In this document: positions 6,638 through 19,203 of the stretch, piece after piece | Numbering within the stretch: position 1 is the first letter of the stretch | How the letters are laid out: every line of letters starts with the position of its first letter | Virus record (IMG/VR): IMGVR_UViG_3300047496_000317 | Location: 1-38,145 of that record | Strand: one strand, 5' to 3' | Length of the DNA stretch: 38,145 nt | From: a virus | The notes under the pieces: model-generated | Database searches by the model: none | What the model was told of the DNA's origin: nothing | What the model saw: the letters and a program-made list of their open reading frames with translations, nothing else | Made by a program: the position numbers and the translations under genes

Positions 6638-7648
6638 ATGATTAACCTGCTTTTGATTGTGCCCGAAATTTCTGACGGCACTAGTTTCTATCGCGCTGCT
6701 GGCCCCTTGGCCGATATCAGAAAGAAATTTGTAGATATAAATATAATGAGCGTCGGTCAATATACCGAGGCTACGATGAGTTTCGCCGATATCGTTTTCA
6801 TGCAACGGCCCTTTATTGATCAGCATGTTCAGCAAGCCGCCATGGCTAAGGCTAGAAAAATTCCATTACTGATCGATTATGACGATGATTTGTTTTCGGT
6901 AGGGCAAGATAATTTTACAGCAGATATATATAATCAGCCTGGCCTGCAAGAGAATATTAAAAAGTTATGTACAATGGCCGATTGTATTTCTGTCTCGACG
7001 GAAGCCCTTGGTAAAAAGATCGCCAAGATAAACCCAAACGTTATTCTAGTTCCCAACGCTGTGGATACGACTCTATTTAAACCAATGGCTCCCGAGATCG
7101 GCAGGAATAAAACGATTCTATGGCGCGGAAGCCACACGCACTTTAAAGATTTGATAGTTCACAAGGAAGCTATCCTAGATATCTATAAAAAATATCCGGA
7201 ATGGAAATGGTTTTTTGCTGGCTATAATGCGTGGTTCATTACTGAACATATGCACCAGGATCGATGCTTCTATGCTCCCTTTATAAATAATGCGCGACAG
7301 TTTATTGAGCTCCTGCAGGCTCAGAGGGCGGCTATTCATCTCGTTCCGCTATTCGATAGTGAGTTTAATCGTTCGAAATCCAATGTCTCTAAACTAGAGG
7401 CTAGTATTGCCGGATCTGCTACGCTAGTCCCGGATTGGGAAGAGTTCCGTGGCGGAGAAGCGTTTCGATATAAAGATCCTGCTGATTTCCACGCCAAATT
7501 AGAAGAGATGATCAATACTCCGCTCGAGACGCTCGGCGAGATGGCCAACAAGGATTGGGAATGGGTAGAAAAAGAACGATCCCTTGATGTCATAAATAAG
7601 ACTCGCATAGGAATCTTAATGTCAATGCTTGGACTATTAAAGAAATGA
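6638..7648 (+). CDS. GT-B fold glycosyltransferase, GT4-like
   Basis: A 336-residue product with a strong GGAGAG ribosome binding site. Both halves of the GT-B fold show family landmarks: an N-terminal domain with LIDYDDDLF (residues 78-86), the VPNAVDTTLF segment (138-147) that matches the PNGVD..F hinge motif of GT4 enzymes, and a C-terminal donor-binding stretch with SKLEASIAG (251-259) in place of the usual Glu-containing EALA-type motif. The enzyme should transfer a sugar from a nucleotide sugar. The acceptor is unknown. It heads a cassette with an acyltransferase, a hydrolase and a second glycosyltransferase, coupled to the next gene by an ATGA overlap. Confidence 0.82.
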   Translation: MINLLLIVPEISDGTSFYRAAGPLADIRKKFVDINIMSVGQYTEATMSFADIVFMQRPFIDQHVQQAAMAKARKIPLLIDYDDDLFSVGQDNFTADIYNQPGLQENIKKLCTMADCISVSTEALGKKIAKINPNVILVPNAVDTTLFKPMAPEIGRNKTILWRGSHTHFKDLIVHKEAILDIYKKYPEWKWFFAGYNAWFITEHMHQDRCFYAPFINNARQFIELLQAQRAAIHLVPLFDSEFNRSKSNVSKLEASIAGSATLVPDWEEFRGGEAFRYKDPADFHAKLEEMINTPLETLGEMANKDWEWVEKERSLDVINKTRIGILMSMLGLLKK

Positions 7649-8295
7649 AGAACGTTGATAAAAGATATAAAGAGAATTTTATTCACGAAACGGCATTACT
7701 TGGCGAAGGCGTAAAGCTAGGCAAGGGCAACCATATTGGCCCGTACTGCATCATTCAAGGCGAAACAACTATCGGTGACAATAATCGACTCGAAGCTTTC
7801 GTTTCGATAGGGACGCCGGCAGAGCATCGAGATTATTTTAAGCAAGAATTTAATAAAGTCATAATAGGTAATAATAATATTTTTCGTGAATGGCATACGA
7901 CGAATTCCGGGACGACGAGAACGACTACGATTGGAAATAATTGTATCTTCCTTCGTGGTTCTCACGTCGGTCATGACTCGATCGTCGAGGATAAGGTGAC
8001 GCTTTCCTGTAATGTCCTCGTGGGCGGGGAGAGCTATATTATGACGGGTGCTAATATGGGACTTGGTTCTGTTTGCCATCAAAGATCGGTGATCGGCGCT
8101 CAAAGCATGCTCGGCATGAATGCAGTAGTAACGAGAACCTCTAGGATAGCACCGGGGCATATTTATGCCGGTTCACCGGCTCGTATTTTGAGAAAGAATC
8201 AGGTCGGGCTAAACCGTCACGGCATTACCGATGAAATGCTTAAGGTCTGGAATGATCAATTCTTTTCACTACTCTTATCGATAAGGAAGCAATGA
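7645..8295 (+). CDS. LpxA-like left-handed beta-helix acyltransferase
   Basis: A 216-residue hexapeptide-repeat protein. Residues 17-56 and 93-165 consist of short repeats with I/V-G every six residues (LGEGVKLGKGNHIGPYC, TTIGDNN, TTTIGNN). SHVGHD at 106-111 aligns with the catalytic HIAHD region of LpxA, with both His kept (107 and 110). The end (AGSPAR, then VGLNRHGI) matches the LpxA sequence N-A/P-GLKRRGF. LpxA adds a hydroxyacyl chain to UDP-GlcNAc in lipid A synthesis. This copy is shorter than the usual 260 residues because most of the C-terminal helical domain is missing. It could acylate a nucleotide sugar made for the neighbouring glycosyltransferases, or be an acetyltransferase. 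Confidence 0.83.
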   Translation: MKNVDKRYKENFIHETALLGEGVKLGKGNHIGPYCIIQGETTIGDNNRLEAFVSIGTPAEHRDYFKQEFNKVIIGNNNIFREWHTTNSGTTRTTTIGNNCIFLRGSHVGHDSIVEDKVTLSCNVLVGGESYIMTGANMGLGSVCHQRSVIGAQSMLGMNAVVTRTSRIAPGHIYAGSPARILRKNQVGLNRHGITDEMLKVWNDQFFSLLLSIRKQ

Positions 8296-9503
8296 CGAAA
8301 GAACTGGAAACATTTCTTGCTAGCGTTGAGGATGGCGTATTTTATATCGGGCACGCTTCGGCTTTAGTTCGTGTCGCCAATCAGTTAATCCTCTGTGATC
8401 CGGTATGGGATTACAGGCCATACGGCGAGTATTGGAGATTTTTTCCCGAACAAGAGAACTGTAATGAAATATTAGATAGAATTGATTTCTGTGTCATTAG
8501 CCACAAACATGCGGATCACTATCGACCAGAAATTCTAAAAAAATTAGATTGTCCTATAGCAATCATGGGTGGTCGTGATTGGAAGCCTGATGTTAATAAA
8601 TTCTTTGAATTTGCGCCTCTTAAATGGCATCAAGAAGATCTTTGCGAAGTCTATTTCGTTCCTCATGCGTTTAATACGATTGATAGTTCCGTGTTCTTTA
8701 GAAATAAAGAGACGGGATATACGATTTATATCGGGTCAGATAATTTCCTATCTGTAGAATTATTATATGCAATTCGAGAAGATATAGACCGTGTTGATAT
8801 CGCTATGGTTCCCTATTCTTTTGTTCATTGGTGGCCATTTCTTCAAAAAAATATCAGCGATGATTTTAAATATGCAGAAATATGTCGGATGAATAAACAA
8901 TCGATCGATCAGGCGTACGATTTTATCAAGATGATGAGACCAAAAATTATTGTGCCATTTGGAAATAGTTTATTCTATGAAGCCGGCGCGAGTCATATAT
9001 TAAACCGAAGTCTAGCAAATCCGTGGAATCTCCGAGGAGCTTCCCCCATGCTTGCCGGTGATTTTATACTGGATAATCATGTCCATCATGCGCTTGAGAG
9101 TAGCGAACCGCGCTATTATCTCGATATGCTTTATAGCTCATTAGGAGAAGTAGAACTCCCCGAGCTTAATCTCGAATTCGCTGCCCATGAGATGCTTTTT
9201 AATTATCCAAAAAGAATCATGCTATTCGCCAAGAAAATAAATTCAATCGAGATAGACGTGGAAGAGCATTATCTTATTGTGAACGGATTGTGTATCGATC
9301 TAGGGACAAAATCGATAATCATGAGCGGTGAATCATCGACGACACCTAGACATATATTTAATTTCGATCGATCTATTTTTGAAAAATGGATTTGTGGCGA
9401 AATAACGTTTGAGGAAGCAATCGGTACTAGACGGTTCGAGTTTATTCGAGAACCGGATAAATATGATGTGCGAATCTTTGAAATAATGAATCGATGGCTC
9501 TGA
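8292..9503 (+). CDS. Metallo-beta-lactamase-fold hydrolase with extra C-terminal domain
   Basis: A 403-residue product coupled by ATGA to the LpxA-like gene. The zinc signature HKHADH is at residues 71-76, with His123 (FVPHAFN) and Asp148 (YIGSDN) as further metal ligands. FYIGHASALVRV at the front is the usual first strands of the fold. The overall layout is nearest to the UlaG/NAPE-PLD-like branch of hydrolases that act on sugar phosphates or phospholipid-like esters. The last 100 residues form a separate small domain ending RRFEFIREPDKYD. The substrate is unknown; the neighbours suggest a sugar, an acyl-sugar or an activated precursor. Confidence 0.83.
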   Translation: MTKELETFLASVEDGVFYIGHASALVRVANQLILCDPVWDYRPYGEYWRFFPEQENCNEILDRIDFCVISHKHADHYRPEILKKLDCPIAIMGGRDWKPDVNKFFEFAPLKWHQEDLCEVYFVPHAFNTIDSSVFFRNKETGYTIYIGSDNFLSVELLYAIREDIDRVDIAMVPYSFVHWWPFLQKNISDDFKYAEICRMNKQSIDQAYDFIKMMRPKIIVPFGNSLFYEAGASHILNRSLANPWNLRGASPMLAGDFILDNHVHHALESSEPRYYLDMLYSSLGEVELPELNLEFAAHEMLFNYPKRIMLFAKKINSIEIDVEEHYLIVNGLCIDLGTKSIIMSGESSTTPRHIFNFDRSIFEKWICGEITFEEAIGTRRFEFIREPDKYDVRIFEIMNRWL

Positions 9504-13355: not shown

Positions 13356-15257
13356 ATGATAAAATTAATGATCGCGTTATTTCTTATGTTCTCGCACGCG
13401 GCTTTCGCTGAAAGCCCTATCGTCTGGTCGAGCGCAAACGGCGTAACATTAGCTCAGATTCTAAATCCCGCTCAAGGCATCGTTCAATACGACGGTAAAC
13501 AGATTCGCGCCCTCAGTGTTAATCCCTCGAGCGGCGGCGGAGTAGCAGCTCCCATAGGATCTCTTGGCCAGTATAATGCTTCCGGTACCGGACAACTTTG
13601 GTTGAAAACAGGATCCGGAAACACTTCCTGGACACAAGTCGCAGCCGGCGGCTCGGGTATTACTTCAATCAATGGTGATACAACGGCGGCACAGCTGATC
13701 ACGGCCGCCTCGACGGGTACTGACTTCACGATCTCAACTGCGGGCGGGACCACTACGGTAGCCATCCCCAGCGCGTCGGCAACGGCCCGTGGGCTCGTTA
13801 CGACTGGTAGTCAGACTATAGCGGGCAATAAAACATTTTCGGGCTCTATAAGCGCTTCCAACCTCACTGGAACGAATACAGGAGATCAGACGATCACTCT
13901 CACGGGAGACGTGACCGGATCAGGTACTGGATCTTTCGCCTCAACGCTCGCCACGGTGAATACCAATATCGGAACCTTTGCGTCTAGTACTGTGAATGGG
14001 AAAGGTCTGATAACCGCTGCCGCCAACTTGACGGGCGACGCAACTACGAGTGGGTCCGCCCTCACGCTCGCTACCGTGAATTCAAACGTCGGAAGCTTCA
14101 CGAATGCCTCGATCACCGTTAATGGCAAAGGGCTGATCACGGCCGCCTCGAGTGGATCCGCCACCACACCCGGTGGATCCAATACTCAAATTCAATATAA
14201 TGATTCAAGCGCTTTCAACGGTGATGCCGCTCTCACATTCACCAAGGCTACGGGCGTTACTTATCTCAAACACGCAACCTCCGATGGCGGCGGCAGCGGC
14301 GCAAACTCAGAGCGTTTCGGCGTGGGAGCGAACGGCACGGGCGCCTCTCAAACCTTACTGGGAGACAATGCCTTCGGCTCTAGTGGCGCATCGAACGTCT
14401 GTATCGGTCACAACTCTTCGTGTAGCAACAGTACGGGCGGCCAAGACACCATCATCGGCACGGCTGCCGTATCTAGTCTCACGGCGAATGGTGCCAATGC
14501 TGGCATAGGGTATAGTCTCTCAATGGGATTCGCTTCGGCAGCAGTAGGCTGGAGCGTTACCTGCGGGAAAGCCGGCGTATGTCTAGGCGCAGGAGCGGCC
14601 GCCACCGACAACGTTACAGGATTGGATATTGTAATTGGTCGATCCAGTACTGATACGCAAAATTCAAACCTTTTAATAGGCACCAACATTGCCAACACGA
14701 CGGGCACCAATCAAGCAATCTTTGGTTCCGCTACCACTCCCTATACGCAATGGTATCTGGGTAGCGGAAAATCCGCCGCGGCACCAAGTGCGATCACTGT
14801 TCAGGCTACTCCCGTGGTTACTGGAACAAGTAATACCGCTGGCGTGAACTTCACCCTAGCAGCTGGTAATGGGACAGGCACTGGTGGATCCGGCGCAATT
14901 AATTTTCAAACGGCTCCCGTCGGATCTACTGGATCCACGCCGAATACGCTAGCAACCGTCGTGTCGATTTCAAATAAGGGAGCGATCAATTCTTCCGCGC
15001 CACAGACGGTATTAACGGCCACAGGTACTGCGACGTTCTCCGAACCCTTCCAGGGTGCTAGCTATAAGAAGGTAATTATTTTTCTAAATGCATTTACCGA
15101 CACAGGCACGCAGACATATACCTATCCAACCGCATTCACGAATACGCCATATGTTTATGGGCTCAGCGCCGGTGTTGCCGGTGCTACAGCATCGACATCT
15201 TCGGTTTCATTCACTGTAACGGGCGCAACAGGCCTTGTATTTTTGGAAGGCTATTAA
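13356..15257 (+). CDS. Tail-fibre-like repeat protein with Sec signal peptide
   Basis: A 633-residue product. AAGGA precedes the ATG. Residues 1-18 are a textbook signal peptide (basic start, hydrophobic core, AFA before the cut). The mature part has fibre-type repeats: TVNTNIGTFASS then VNGKGLITAA at about 200-225, and the related TVNSNVGSF then VNGKGLITAA at about 240-265. A stretch GGSNTQIQYND (273-283) is common to phage and bacterial fibre proteins. The C-terminal 80 residues look like a trimeric tip. Phage fibres normally assemble in the cytoplasm, so a signal peptide is unexpected. It may be a displayed or secreted adhesin. Confidence 0.78.
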   Translation: MIKLMIALFLMFSHAAFAESPIVWSSANGVTLAQILNPAQGIVQYDGKQIRALSVNPSSGGGVAAPIGSLGQYNASGTGQLWLKTGSGNTSWTQVAAGGSGITSINGDTTAAQLITAASTGTDFTISTAGGTTTVAIPSASATARGLVTTGSQTIAGNKTFSGSISASNLTGTNTGDQTITLTGDVTGSGTGSFASTLATVNTNIGTFASSTVNGKGLITAAANLTGDATTSGSALTLATVNSNVGSFTNASITVNGKGLITAASSGSATTPGGSNTQIQYNDSSAFNGDAALTFTKATGVTYLKHATSDGGGSGANSERFGVGANGTGASQTLLGDNAFGSSGASNVCIGHNSSCSNSTGGQDTIIGTAAVSSLTANGANAGIGYSLSMGFASAAVGWSVTCGKAGVCLGAGAAATDNVTGLDIVIGRSSTDTQNSNLLIGTNIANTTGTNQAIFGSATTPYTQWYLGSGKSAAAPSAITVQATPVVTGTSNTAGVNFTLAAGNGTGTGGSGAINFQTAPVGSTGSTPNTLATVVSISNKGAINSSAPQTVLTATGTATFSEPFQGASYKKVIIFLNAFTDTGTQTYTYPTAFTNTPYVYGLSAGVAGATASTSSVSFTVTGATGLVFLEGY

Positions 15258-16034
15258 ATGAAAATACTTTGTAAATACGATGAACTGTTGCCACTTGATA
15301 AATTTATCGAACATCCAAAGAATCCGAATAAACACGATGAACCACAGATTAAGCGATTAGCCGAGCTTTATAAATATCACGGGATTCGTCATCCTATTAT
15401 CGTTTCGAAATTATCAGGATTCATTGTGGCTGGTCACGGACGACTTAGTTCCGCACGACTAGCCGGATTAAAAGAATTTCCGGTAGAATATCAGGACTTC
15501 GATAGTGATGAAGCCGAATACGCTTTCCTTGTGGCAGATAATGCTATCTCCTCGTGGTCGGAACTCGATCTAGCTTCGATTAATTTAGAGATTCCAGCCT
15601 TGGGACCAGATTTTGATATCGATTACTTAGGGCTTAAAGATTTCACTATCGATATTTCCGAAAAACAAGACGGCTTAGGCGATGAAGATCTATATACGAA
15701 AAAAATTTTAGCGCCGATATACGAGCCGAAGGGCGAAAGGCCGCCTATTCACGAGCTTTACGATCGCGCAAAAACCGATGAGCTTATCGCGGAGTTAAAG
15801 GCAATGGAAATCCCGGAAGATATAAAAAATTTCCTGTCCCTAGCGGCACAACGCCATATAATTTTTAACTACGAAAAAATCGCGGAATACTATTCGCATG
15901 CTCCCATCGAGATTAAAACCGAGATGGAAAAATCCGCACTAGTAATTATTGATTTTAATAAAGCGATCGAATATGGGTTCATCACGATGACTAAAGAGAT
16001 AGCAGAGGCATATCCGAGTGCCGATTATGAATGA
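15258..16034 (+). CDS. ParB/sulfiredoxin-fold protein, DNA-modification associated
   Basis: A 258-residue product beginning directly after the fibre stop, with GGAAGG upstream. The N-terminal 100 residues are a ParB-like domain: HPKNPNKHDEPQIKRLAE, HGIRHPIIVS, then VAGHGRLSSARLAGL with the family GHGR box (59-62) and VADNAISSW. In phages such domains often accompany DNA methylases and base-modification enzymes. The C-terminal 150 residues are a helical domain that I do not recognise. It overlaps the glycosyltransferase gene by 17 bases (8 if that gene starts at 16027), so the two products probably act together. Confidence 0.8.
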   Translation: MKILCKYDELLPLDKFIEHPKNPNKHDEPQIKRLAELYKYHGIRHPIIVSKLSGFIVAGHGRLSSARLAGLKEFPVEYQDFDSDEAEYAFLVADNAISSWSELDLASINLEIPALGPDFDIDYLGLKDFTIDISEKQDGLGDEDLYTKKILAPIYEPKGERPPIHELYDRAKTDELIAELKAMEIPEDIKNFLSLAAQRHIIFNYEKIAEYYSHAPIEIKTEMEKSALVIIDFNKAIEYGFITMTKEIAEAYPSADYE

Positions 16035-16881
16035 TTTCGCGGCATTTATCCTTACAAACGGCCGACCGGATAACGTTAAAACCTATAACTCGCTCCGAAA
16101 GCGAGGATATTCCGGGAGGATCGTTATCGTTGTCGATGATCTCGATAAGACGCGAGAACAATACGTAGCCAAATATGGAAATGAAGTCGAGATATTCGAT
16201 AAAAAAGCAATAGCAAAGACTTTCGACTCGGGCGACAATTTCCAGGATATGCGTGCGATTATCTATGCTCGTAACGCTAGTTTCGAGATTGCGAAAAAAC
16301 TTAAAATTAAATATTTTATTCAACTCGATGACGATTATACAGCATTTAAGTTTAGGTTTAACAAAGAGCTAGAATATTGGCCGCGATCAATGAGGAATCT
16401 CGATCGCGTCTTTAGTTCTATGGTGAAGTTTTTCGAGGCTTCCGGCGTCGACTCGATCGCAATGAGTCAGGGCGGCGACTTTATTGGTGGCGAGGAGAAT
16501 CAAAACGCTAAAATAATAACCCTTAAAAGAAAATGCATGAACTCTTTCCTTTGTTCGACGAATCGCCCGTTTAAGTTTATTGGCCGCATTAATGAGGATG
16601 TAAATGCCTATACTCGCCTAGCTAGCACCGGCCTCTTGGTTTTTACAACGAATCAGATATCATTAGAACAAACTCAAACGCAGACGAGCGCCGGCGGTAT
16701 GACAGAACTATATCTCGACTCCGGAACGTATGTGAAATCATTCTATTCGGTAATGTATCAGCCATCTTCTGTAAAGATAAAAATCATACGGGACCGTAAA
16801 GATGCGCGTCTACACCATAGCGTAGCTTGGAATAAAACCGTTCCGAAGATCCTTCGCGAGCCGCTTATAAAGCAGAAATAG
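16018..16881 (+). CDS. Glycosyltransferase resembling the TET/JBP-associated (TAGT) family
   Basis: A 287-residue product starting at GTG 16018 (GAGG about ten bases upstream) or ATG 16027. Landmarks: FILTNGRPDN (10-19), IVIVVDDLD (35-43), DSGDNFQ (70-76), YARN (83-86) and the acidic FIQLDDDYTAF (100-110), which should bind the metal and nucleotide sugar. This order matches what I know of TAGT enzymes, which glycosylate oxidised bases in DNA and in phages are often found with ParB-like proteins. No TET/JBP dioxygenase, hydroxymethylase or pyrimidine-nucleotide enzyme is present in this genome, so the acceptor is open. It could use bases made by the host or a different acceptor. Confidence 0.68.
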   Translation: MPIMNDFAAFILTNGRPDNVKTYNSLRKRGYSGRIVIVVDDLDKTREQYVAKYGNEVEIFDKKAIAKTFDSGDNFQDMRAIIYARNASFEIAKKLKIKYFIQLDDDYTAFKFRFNKELEYWPRSMRNLDRVFSSMVKFFEASGVDSIAMSQGGDFIGGEENQNAKIITLKRKCMNSFLCSTNRPFKFIGRINEDVNAYTRLASTGLLVFTTNQISLEQTQTQTSAGGMTELYLDSGTYVKSFYSVMYQPSSVKIKIIRDRKDARLHHSVAWNKTVPKILREPLIKQK

Positions 16882-17468: not shown

Positions 17469-17498
17469 TTGACCTCTAATCGTTTTTACGGCTATCCT
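17469..17498 (+). promoter_or_regulatory. Promoter giving a leaderless terminase transcript
   Basis: TTGACC at 17469-17474, an 18-base spacer and TATCCT at 17493-17498 form a sigma70-type promoter. With normal geometry, transcription begins at 17505, the A of the ATG of the small terminase gene. No Shine-Dalgarno sequence is present there, which fits a leaderless mRNA. Confidence 0.5.
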
Positions 17499-17504
17499 AG
17501 CTAT

Positions 17505-17894
17505 ATGGCTCGGCCAAAGGGCTCAACCAAATACAAATTCAATCAAGATCAAGCCGATAGGATTGAGAAACTCGCGGCTATCGGTTTAAACAAAGAACAT
17601 ATCATGGCCGTCGAACAGATGGGCGAATCCGTCATGTATAAGCTTTACGGGGACTACATCAAGCGAGGCAAGGCGCGCGGTATCGCTGCCGTCGCAACGA
17701 CACTCTATAATAAGGCCGTCAAGGGTGATTGCCCTGCTATGACTATCTTCTTTTTAAAGGTACGCGGCGGCTGGAAAGACGTGCAAGCTATAGAGCACTC
17801 GGGACCTGGCGGTAAGCCTATCGAAACAACTTCGGATAATACGATCTATGAAACCACTTGGCGTGAACTCCCGAAGCCTAAAGAAGAATCCTAA
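17505..17894 (+). CDS. terS: Terminase small subunit
   Basis: A 129-residue product from ATG 17505; the frame is open from a TTG at 17469, but that codon is the promoter's -35 element. The N-terminus (MARPKGSTKYKF) and a helix-turn-helix-like segment (residues 12-55) should bind the packaging site. NKAVKGDCPAMTIFFLKVRGGWKD (64-87) is the typical oligomerisation region of small terminases. It lies directly before the large subunit and overlaps it by 47 bases. Confidence 0.8.
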   Translation: MARPKGSTKYKFNQDQADRIEKLAAIGLNKEHIMAVEQMGESVMYKLYGDYIKRGKARGIAAVATTLYNKAVKGDCPAMTIFFLKVRGGWKDVQAIEHSGPGGKPIETTSDNTIYETTWRELPKPKEES

Positions 17895-19203
17895 AGAAAC
17901 GCTCCAGCTCTATACTCCTACAAGCGCTCAGCTTCGTGCCCACATATCACAACATCAGTTCAATGTTATCCGTTGGGGAAGGCAAGCCGGCAAAGGCACC
18001 TATGCTACCAATAAATTATTTCAGAGAGCGTGGACAAAGCCAATCGATCGCTATCGCTTCTATTGGTACGTGGGTCCCACTTATCGTCTAGCAACACAGA
18101 TGTATGAGCGCGCCCTTTGGGCACTACCGCGCGAGGCTTATACATATAAATCCGATTCAGATTTAATTATCGAGCTGAAAACGAAAGCACTTCTTTATTA
18201 TAAATCTAGTGATAATCCCGGAGGATTATTAGGCGAAACTCTCGATGGTTTAGTAATGGATGAGTGTCGTGAACAGGAAAAGAAAACATGGGAGCACTAT
18301 CTCATGCCCATGCTTGGAACAACCGACGGATGGGCTGACTTCTTAAGTACTCCAAATGGTTTCGATTGGTTCCATGATTTAGACCAAAATTCTTTGACTG
18401 ATCCTGCATGGGGATCTTATCATGCGCCCTCTCAATCGAATCCTCTCTGGACTCCAAAGATGCTCGATAGTGCAAAAAAAAGTATGACCGCGGATTTATA
18501 TGCGCAAGAAATATTAGCCGAATATAGAGAATTAGGAATCGGTAGTGTCTATTCTAGTTTCAGCTCTGATCGAAATATTTCTGATAAAAATCCATTCGCT
18601 ATCTCGGGCGAACCAATAAGTAAATATTTACCTATATTAATAGCTGCCGATTTTAATTTAAATCCAGGCAGCTGGGTTCTCGGCCAAAACCGTGGACGTA
18701 GTTTTTATTGGTTCGATGAAATCGTAATGCCACACTCTCACACACAAATGATGAGTCAAGAACTGGTCGATCGACTAGTATTATTGGAATGTAATAATGT
18801 CATTATTATCGGCGATGCCTCTGGAAAGTCTAGCCAGCGCGCCGCTTCCGGACAGTCCGACTATGACATAATGAAGAACGCATTAAAACTAGCCGGTATA
18901 AAATTCTCAGATAAAACACCGGACGCTAATCCAGCGGTAAAAGATCGCGTTAATGCTCTCAATTGCTCACTATTAGGCGCTGATGGTTCTGTAAATACAA
19001 CAATTCATCCGTCATGCAAAAAATTAATTACAGATCTTAGGCGAGTTATTTGGAAAGAAGGTTCAGCTAGCTTGGCTATTGATAAATCTAATCATGAGCT
19101 GACACATACCTCCGACGCCATAGGCTATCCCACCAACGTATTGGCTCCAATAAAACAGATCGGTCAGGTAGGAAAGATGCGCATCATCTCCAGGTCTTTT
19201 TAA
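17848..19203 (+). CDS. terL: Terminase large subunit
   Basis: A 451-residue packaging motor. ATPase: Walker A GRQAGKGT (44-51), Walker B LDGLVMDE (132-139, Glu139 catalytic) and the coupling motif STPNG (167-171). Nuclease: Asp268 in IAADFN, Asp323 in IIGDASG and Asp423 in HTSDAIGY, the three acids of an RNase H-like fold that cuts the concatemer. Domain order and length are normal. The first 25 residues are basic and unstructured. It starts inside the small-subunit gene, in another frame. Confidence 0.93.
   Translation: MKPLGVNSRSLKKNPKETLQLYTPTSAQLRAHISQHQFNVIRWGRQAGKGTYATNKLFQRAWTKPIDRYRFYWYVGPTYRLATQMYERALWALPREAYTYKSDSDLIIELKTKALLYYKSSDNPGGLLGETLDGLVMDECREQEKKTWEHYLMPMLGTTDGWADFLSTPNGFDWFHDLDQNSLTDPAWGSYHAPSQSNPLWTPKMLDSAKKSMTADLYAQEILAEYRELGIGSVYSSFSSDRNISDKNPFAISGEPISKYLPILIAADFNLNPGSWVLGQNRGRSFYWFDEIVMPHSHTQMMSQELVDRLVLLECNNVIIIGDASGKSSQRAASGQSDYDIMKNALKLAGIKFSDKTPDANPAVKDRVNALNCSLLGADGSVNTTIHPSCKKLITDLRRVIWKEGSASLAIDKSNHELTHTSDAIGYPTNVLAPIKQIGQVGKMRIISRSF

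Follow-up and report, generated by a model that had tools for sequence, protein, structure and literature searches.

The TAGT family of glycosyltransferases (Pfam PF20691) includes the beta-glucosyl-HMC-alpha-glucosyltransferase (Ggt) of the T-even phages T6 and T2. For the T6 enzyme, one study reports a GT-A fold, action on phage DNA and the addition of a second glucose onto a sugar (PMC13216743). The T6 gene adjoins that of a dCMP hydroxymethylase, with the alpha-glucosyltransferase located elsewhere, and no gene for a ParB-like protein or its C-terminal domain (CTD) stands beside it. Further phage TAGT systems are those associated with TET/JBP, the name-giving feature of the family (Iyer/Aravind prediction, as summarized in PMC4111573). 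In addition, solitary TAGTs are already known, since 288 of 753 phage genomes feature a TAGT but no alpha- or beta-glucosyltransferase, and the proposal there is that these may be novel transferases (PMC13216743). The name "TET-associated" leaves the acceptor unsettled, as the T6 member acts on a sugar and GREB1, a mammalian TAGT relative (PMC4111573), was reported to O-GlcNAcylate protein (PMC12645433).

The ParB_N domain is likewise found beside DNA-modifying enzymes. Phage ParB_N-DNA methyltransferase fusions (PHROG 498) are exemplified by Psychrobacter phage pOW20-A, in which a ParB_N-N6/N4-methyltransferase (Pfam: ParB_N + N6_N4_Mtase) is encoded directly before terminase. In Mycobacterium phage Nigel, the ParB_N protein gp1 (profile E 2.4e-18) has no CTD, and its gene overlaps that of the TET/JBP homologue gp2 (Pfam 4.3e-6) directly before terminase. 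Moreover, many contigs encoding CmoX, a DNA cytosine carboxymethyltransferase, contain ParB-domain proteins, whose role there was stated to be unknown (PMC12783734). The methyltransferase fusions, the Nigel pair and the CmoX neighbors suggest that ParB_N repeatedly accompanies chemically different base modifiers. As a side observation, gp2 of Nigel (L276:776-1744) carries the RefSeq name "queuine tRNA-ribosyltransferase" despite its Tet_JBP match.

The locus described here belongs to a phage sequence of 38,145 nucleotides (IMG/VR record IMGVR_UViG_3300047496_000317), which was analyzed at its full length and is referred to as the window. It encodes a ParB-like protein and an overlapping TAGT. 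The latter shares PF20691 with the T-even Ggt, but BLASTP gave no significant alignment between the window and T6 enzymes. As the T6 enzyme reaches only 35.8 bits to PF20691, the two are kin merely at the level of the family profile, which is too distant for a transfer of function. The missing BLAST similarity and the missing hydroxymethylase place the window TAGT, as far as can be judged from sequence, outside the T-even Ggt type. With the TET/JBP-associated systems, the pair has the TAGT family and the DNA modification context in common, whereas the window and 46 relatives lack TET/JBP and feature the CTD as partner instead. The methyltransferase fusions share the ParB_N type and the slot before terminase; their enzyme, however, is a SAM methyltransferase within the same polypeptide, unlike the separate TAGT gene of the window. 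Nigel gp1-gp2 resembles the pair as a ParB_N protein gene overlapping the gene of a base-modifying enzyme directly before terminase, but with an oxygenase in place of the glycosyltransferase, no CTD and no PF20691 match in the Nigel genome. The solitary TAGTs very likely include the clade studied here, and the accessible part of that report mentions neither the CTD partner nor ParB_N nor inserted genes (PMC13216743).

Genome and Locus

The first 127 bases of the window recur exactly at its end as a direct terminal repeat; the window is thus a complete phage genome, which rules out an acceptor-making enzyme in a lost genome part. The ParB-TAGT pair is located on the plus strand, a short distance upstream of the genes for the small (17469..17894, plus strand; PHROG 309, 4.1e-14) and large terminase subunits (17848..19203, plus strand; PHROG 2, 1.1e-27), with two short minus-strand ORFs between TAGT and the former. 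The ParB gene (15258..16034, plus strand) encodes 258 residues. It starts where the gene of a 633-residue protein ends (13356-15257), which has a signal-peptide-like start and a fiber-like repetitive sequence and remained without match in the PHROG scan. Farther upstream, three overlapping genes (6638-9503) resemble a cluster for the modification of surfaces or sugars; they encode a GT-B-like glycosyltransferase (PHROG 7162, 1.6e-30), a protein with beta-lactamase fold and a hexapeptide acyltransferase (1e-16).

Residues 1-125 of the ParB-like protein (15258..15632, plus strand) form a ParB_N domain of the ParB/Srx superfamily with CTP-binding fold and a GHGR motif; of the nucleotide motif, the alignment reveals only the GHxR..A portion. 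The ORF scored 24.7 bits against Pfam ParB_N (PF02195; E 2.5e-5), just below the cut-off of 26.3, while the relative in phage c5 reached 31.7 bits. Matches were further obtained to PHROG 620 "ParB-like" (2.5e-31) and, for the ParB_N region, to the DNA methyltransferase family with the same N-domain (PHROG 498, 3e-25). In the AF2 model, a confident N-domain is connected by a disordered linker to a helical C-terminal part, ~90 residues in length. The N-domain is matched by structures of ParB, Noc and KorB with bound CTP or CDP (7ng0, Z 13.7, 3.0 Å over 129 residues; 7bnr, Z 13.4; 6sdk, Z 13.1; also 8qa8). This fold search tested mainly the N-domain and barely covered the CTD, so that it carries no claim on the novelty of the CTD fold. 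The helical CTD comprises residues ~144-251 (15687..16010, plus strand) and was delimited by alignment, conserved residues and its occurrence with TAGT. It makes up the C-terminal half of the protein, while the ParB of chromosome and plasmid partition is characterized by a partner ParA and a parS-binding HTH domain. The idea that it is a known domain was dropped, as it matched no Pfam model and a PDB sequence search gave no significant match.

The TAGT gene (16018..16881, plus strand) overlaps the ParB stop. Translation from the GTG at 16018 yields 287 residues, and an alternative ATG at 16027 (284 residues) is also consistent with the homologue starts. The product belongs to PF20691 (117.8 bits at a cut-off of 27.5, E 7.7e-34, residues 9-227 on profile positions 3-205) and matched PHROG 842 at 4.5e-73. 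Its AF2 model (27 sequences; pLDDT 81.6, pTM 0.83) exhibits a GT-A fold, with N-acetylglucosaminyltransferase I as the nearest solved structure (1foa, Z 12.7, 3.7 Å over 198 residues). GalNAc-T2, BcsA and WrtF follow closely in score, and an O-mannose GlcNAc transferase is also among the neighbors. In an alignment of 35 homologues, the DDD motif D104-D106 (16327..16335, plus strand), i.e., the nucleotide-sugar/metal site of GT-A enzymes, and D194 of the ED motif are invariant, and E193 is nearly so. This conservation makes the TAGT look active, with the ED motif (16594..16599, plus strand) as candidate catalytic base region. The TAGT had no match among the defense systems of PADLOC, and the module was accordingly dropped as a known defense system.

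The initial annotation had described a complete genome in which a ParB-domain gene overlaps a TAGT gene (15258-16881), and had proposed a profile search and a structural comparison of the DDD site. The terminal repeat, both ORFs, the ParB_N matches, the PF20691 score and the invariant acidic donor-site motif within a GT-A fold bear out this description.

The CTD as Constant Partner of TAGT

In many relatives, the gene before TAGT encodes only ~135-155 residues, which correspond to the CTD without ParB_N. When viral contigs were scanned with the CTD alone, each of the best 80 loci featured a TAGT, directly downstream in 77 cases and separated by one gene in three. Likewise, all 15 CTD loci in reference genomes were accompanied by TAGT. 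Within the phage collection, tblastn detected the CTD in 28 of 34 TAGT records, and a profile recovered it for the Porphyromonas TAGT, which had no tblastn match. The last four CTD-less records belong to the Lactobacillus delbrueckii phages LL-Ku and Ld17 (two each), in which TAGT is visibly truncated or rearranged. Among 263 collected TAGT copies, 187 were preceded by ParB_N-CTD and 57 by the CTD alone; the CTD was cut by the contig end in nine, and none was detected in ten, mostly at contig ends. One contig (L052:7012-9522) carries the whole module duplicated in tandem (CTD-TAGT-CTD-TAGT) with diverged copies.

R199, Y212 and D232 are invariant in 140 non-redundant CTDs, H200 is present in 139, and E224, Y146 and Y155 are nearly invariant. 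In 108 full modules, mean pairwise identity amounts to 50% for the CTD and 48% for TAGT, compared to 34% for ParB_N. The distance matrices of CTD and TAGT correlate with r 0.60 (partial correlation 0.55 given ParB_N), whereas a partial correlation of 0.16 is left for ParB_N and TAGT after removing the CTD. A quickly built tree of 145 TAGTs, many branches of which are weak, shows seven changes between presence and absence of ParB_N. CTD and TAGT thus form a near-obligate, cognate pair, and ParB_N is exchangeable or absent. The linkage of the ParB-like protein to TAGT, as initially annotated, therefore holds, but the constant partner is, going by these comparisons, the CTD of ~110 residues, which often stands alone, rather than ParB_N.

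This result also bears on the assumption that TAGT is an unrelated neighbor kept by chance and that the ParB-like protein serves in partition or replication. Many records are annotated as ParB and the ParB_N fold is CTP-binding and ParB-like, but the coupling and co-variation of CTD and TAGT, and their persistence where ParB_N is often missing, render this explanation, already disfavored, very improbable.

Fifteen mutually unrelated module-bearing genomes, namely those with Escherichia, Lactobacillus, Nocardia, Porphyromonas and Haloarcula hosts, one human-gut record, eight IMG/VR contigs and the window, have exactly two protein families in common, the CTD-bearing protein and TAGT. Two further clusters, in ten and seven genomes, apparently represent ORFs running antisense to the module locus; behind them, no family occurs in more than six. 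This suggests that the pair needs only itself and universal factors, or else a different partner in each genome.

Enzymes Preparing an Acceptor

No Tet_JBP match was present in the window at E<=10 or in 46 other module-bearing genomes and contigs at E<=0.1, while the same search picked up Nigel's divergent TET at 4.2e-8. A TET too divergent for detection is unlikely, as the Nigel enzyme was found although it is itself below the Pfam cut-off. The Thymidylat_synt family and C5 methyltransferases are likewise absent from the window. Among all 47 records, some of which are fragments where a missing gene is no proof of absence, TET/JBP was found in none, the thymidylate synthase family in one and C5 methyltransferases in two. 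The single thymidylate synthase homologue, in the T4-like Vibrio phage pv27, was rejected as a hydroxymethylase, because its annotation is that of an ordinary thymidylate synthase next to DHFR, and would be no general solution either.

The known acceptor-making enzymes are thus absent, and this absence, together with the coupling, is solid. The initial annotation had noted the lack of TET/JBP, hydroxymethylase, thymidylate synthase-like and DNA polymerase genes. The first three observations were reproduced; a polymerase did not appear in PHROG scans of the larger ORFs either, a result only as good as PHROGs, since several ORFs had no match at all. What did not hold is the missing oxidizing partner as a peculiarity of this genome, for the orphan state is the rule in this TAGT clade. 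Overall, TAGT, the ParB domain, their coupling and the absent TET/JBP and thymidylate synthase-like genes stand, whereas the genome-specific nature of this absence had to be given up and the obligate partner is the CTD.

A classical TAGT could still act if its acceptor base were modified beforehand, either by the host or by an unrecognized phage enzyme that differs from genome to genome. The use of host pathways by phages has precedent, since those with DpdA alone draw on the preQ0 of their host (PMC8651126). Each genome contains some ORFs without known family, and the two genomes with C5 methyltransferases would fit as well. Nevertheless, the hosts span Escherichia, Lactobacillus, Nocardia, Porphyromonas, Vibrio and the archaeon Haloarcula, for which no universal oxidized DNA base is known. 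Considering also that a third common family is missing and that TET/JBP was not found at sensitive thresholds with a positive Nigel control, this explanation is decidedly unlikely.

Some modules contain added enzymes. A Methyltransf_23-like protein is encoded between CTD and TAGT, or beside them, in 12 loci; as SAM methyltransferase, it lies between the two in L008, L011, L013, L017, L029, L031, L042 and L096. Other operons encode a protein in which a cytidylyltransferase domain is in most cases joined to a histidine-phosphatase domain; the former resembles TagD by a reading of the sequence, Pfam giving CTP_transf_like only. The presence of this protein coincides with EDD in place of DDD in the TAGTs of a clade of 34, which is well supported; the protein is located between CTD and EDD-TAGT in L127, L160 and L186-L257. 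In L257, ParB, CTD, phosphatase and cytidylyltransferase are joined in one ORF, and L079 features a second, different cytidylyltransferase after TAGT. Nearly all these cases stem from one clade recruited with one query, and EDD plus cytidylyltransferase was therefore not accepted as independent evidence but counted as one or two evolutionary events. These events suggest that TAGTs differ in the group they transfer and that CDP activation of this group is possible.

Distribution and Maintenance

The same gene pair occurs in phages of Escherichia, Salmonella, Lactobacillus, Nocardia, Porphyromonas, Vibrio and the archaeon Haloarcula, a recurrence far above chance. The module is widespread in unrelated viruses of bacteria and archaea rather than confined to this genome. 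With at least 80% of the query covered, it was detected in 885 of 5426 complete E. coli genomes (~1 in 6), where the RefSeq names for TAGT are "hypothetical" or "GREB1-related". In diverged E. coli strains, dN/dS amounts to about 0.11 for ParB and ranges from 0.11 to 0.27 for TAGT, with about 0.11 in most comparisons; hence both genes are under purifying selection and maintained. K-12-type laboratory strains retain only the first ~88 codons of ParB, as ynaK. RefSeq lists the ParB gene (ynaK) of some other strains as a pseudogene, yet the ORF is intact with ~263 residues (L266:3959-4747, L270:2094-2882), and the call seems to use the truncated K-12 ynaK as reference.

In the L. delbrueckii phages LL-Ku, Ld17 and phiLdb, a decay series of the module (L313:87-935, L274:72-830, L314:848-1713) contrasts with the intact pair of c5. 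The decay in these dairy phages indicates that the module is dispensable in some settings.

Possible Function

The context of the pair points to DNA. The window's ParB_N matches 159 phage records, many of them annotated as adenine-specific or other DNA methyltransferases, and its PADLOC match is MTase_II (8e-13). In E. coli prophages, the gene order of holin, endolysin, Rz, the pair and terminase suggests late expression, at the time of progeny DNA packaging. In CTD-only freshwater phages, however, the commonest neighbors are NinB-like and HNH genes and not terminase, which counts against the explanation favored below. The literature search yielded no chemistry for any phage with the module, and, as to DNA modification in HHTV-2, an archaeal Caudoviricetes paper mentions neither glycosyltransferase nor ParB.

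With a probability of about 0.52, the pair is a phage-encoded, late-acting module that glycosylates DNA, either at a canonical base or at a handle of the pair's own making. TAGT would be active only in complex with the CTD, and ParB_N, where present, would recruit or clamp this complex on DNA. Presumably expressed late and encoded near terminase, the module may decorate the progeny phage DNA shortly before packaging, most plausibly as an escape from host nucleases. The acceptor would not be hydroxymethyl-C or -U supplied by TET/JBP or a hydroxymethylase. An objection to this DNA-glycosylating module is that a sugar on an unmodified base would be chemically unusual.

A more specific proposal is that CTD and TAGT suffice on their own for the glycosylation of DNA. 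The CTD, through its invariant residues (Arg-His, Tyr and Asp; H200 in 139 of 140), would prepare or hold the acceptor, and TAGT would link a sugar to the otherwise unmodified base; in one clade, the group linked would be a CDP-activated one. This proposal is tentative and more doubtful than probable, and a catalytic role of the CTD is guesswork, because the domain has no recognized fold match.

The main rival is that CTD-TAGT glycosylates a protein, be it a virion, DNA-bound phage or host protein or ParB-CTD itself, with ParB_N only placing the enzyme. A protein acceptor would explain the absent base-preparing enzyme and is in line with the activity reported for GREB1, whose kinship to the window TAGT is derived from PMC4111573 and the "GREB1-related" name of the E. 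coli member only. The protein glycosyltransferases GalNAc-T2 and O-mannose GlcNAc transferase among the fold neighbors fit as well, yet this likeness is at the level of a common fold. Besides, the CTD, always present, offers conserved tyrosines (Y212 invariant; Y146 and Y155 nearly so). In turn, ParB_N is common to DNA methyltransferases and the pair takes the same slot as the TET/JBP and methyltransferase pairs, both of which point to DNA. As the 15 genomes share no other protein family, no common phage acceptor is seen besides the pair. A protein target is hence rather unlikely, albeit less so than a classical TAGT on a foreign-made base.

Conclusion

If the pair modifies DNA, a widespread hypermodification system with a new acceptor would be hidden under the names "ParB", "TET-associated" and "beta-glucosyl-HMC". 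If the CTD-TAGT machine were self-sufficient, hypermodified DNA would arise without oxidation, hydroxymethylation or pre-modified nucleotides. Due to the occurrence of the module in about one sixth of the complete E. coli genomes, ordinary strains suffice to settle the question. Furthermore, the ParB_N domains of phages would gain a common theme as companions of chemically very different DNA-modifying enzymes.
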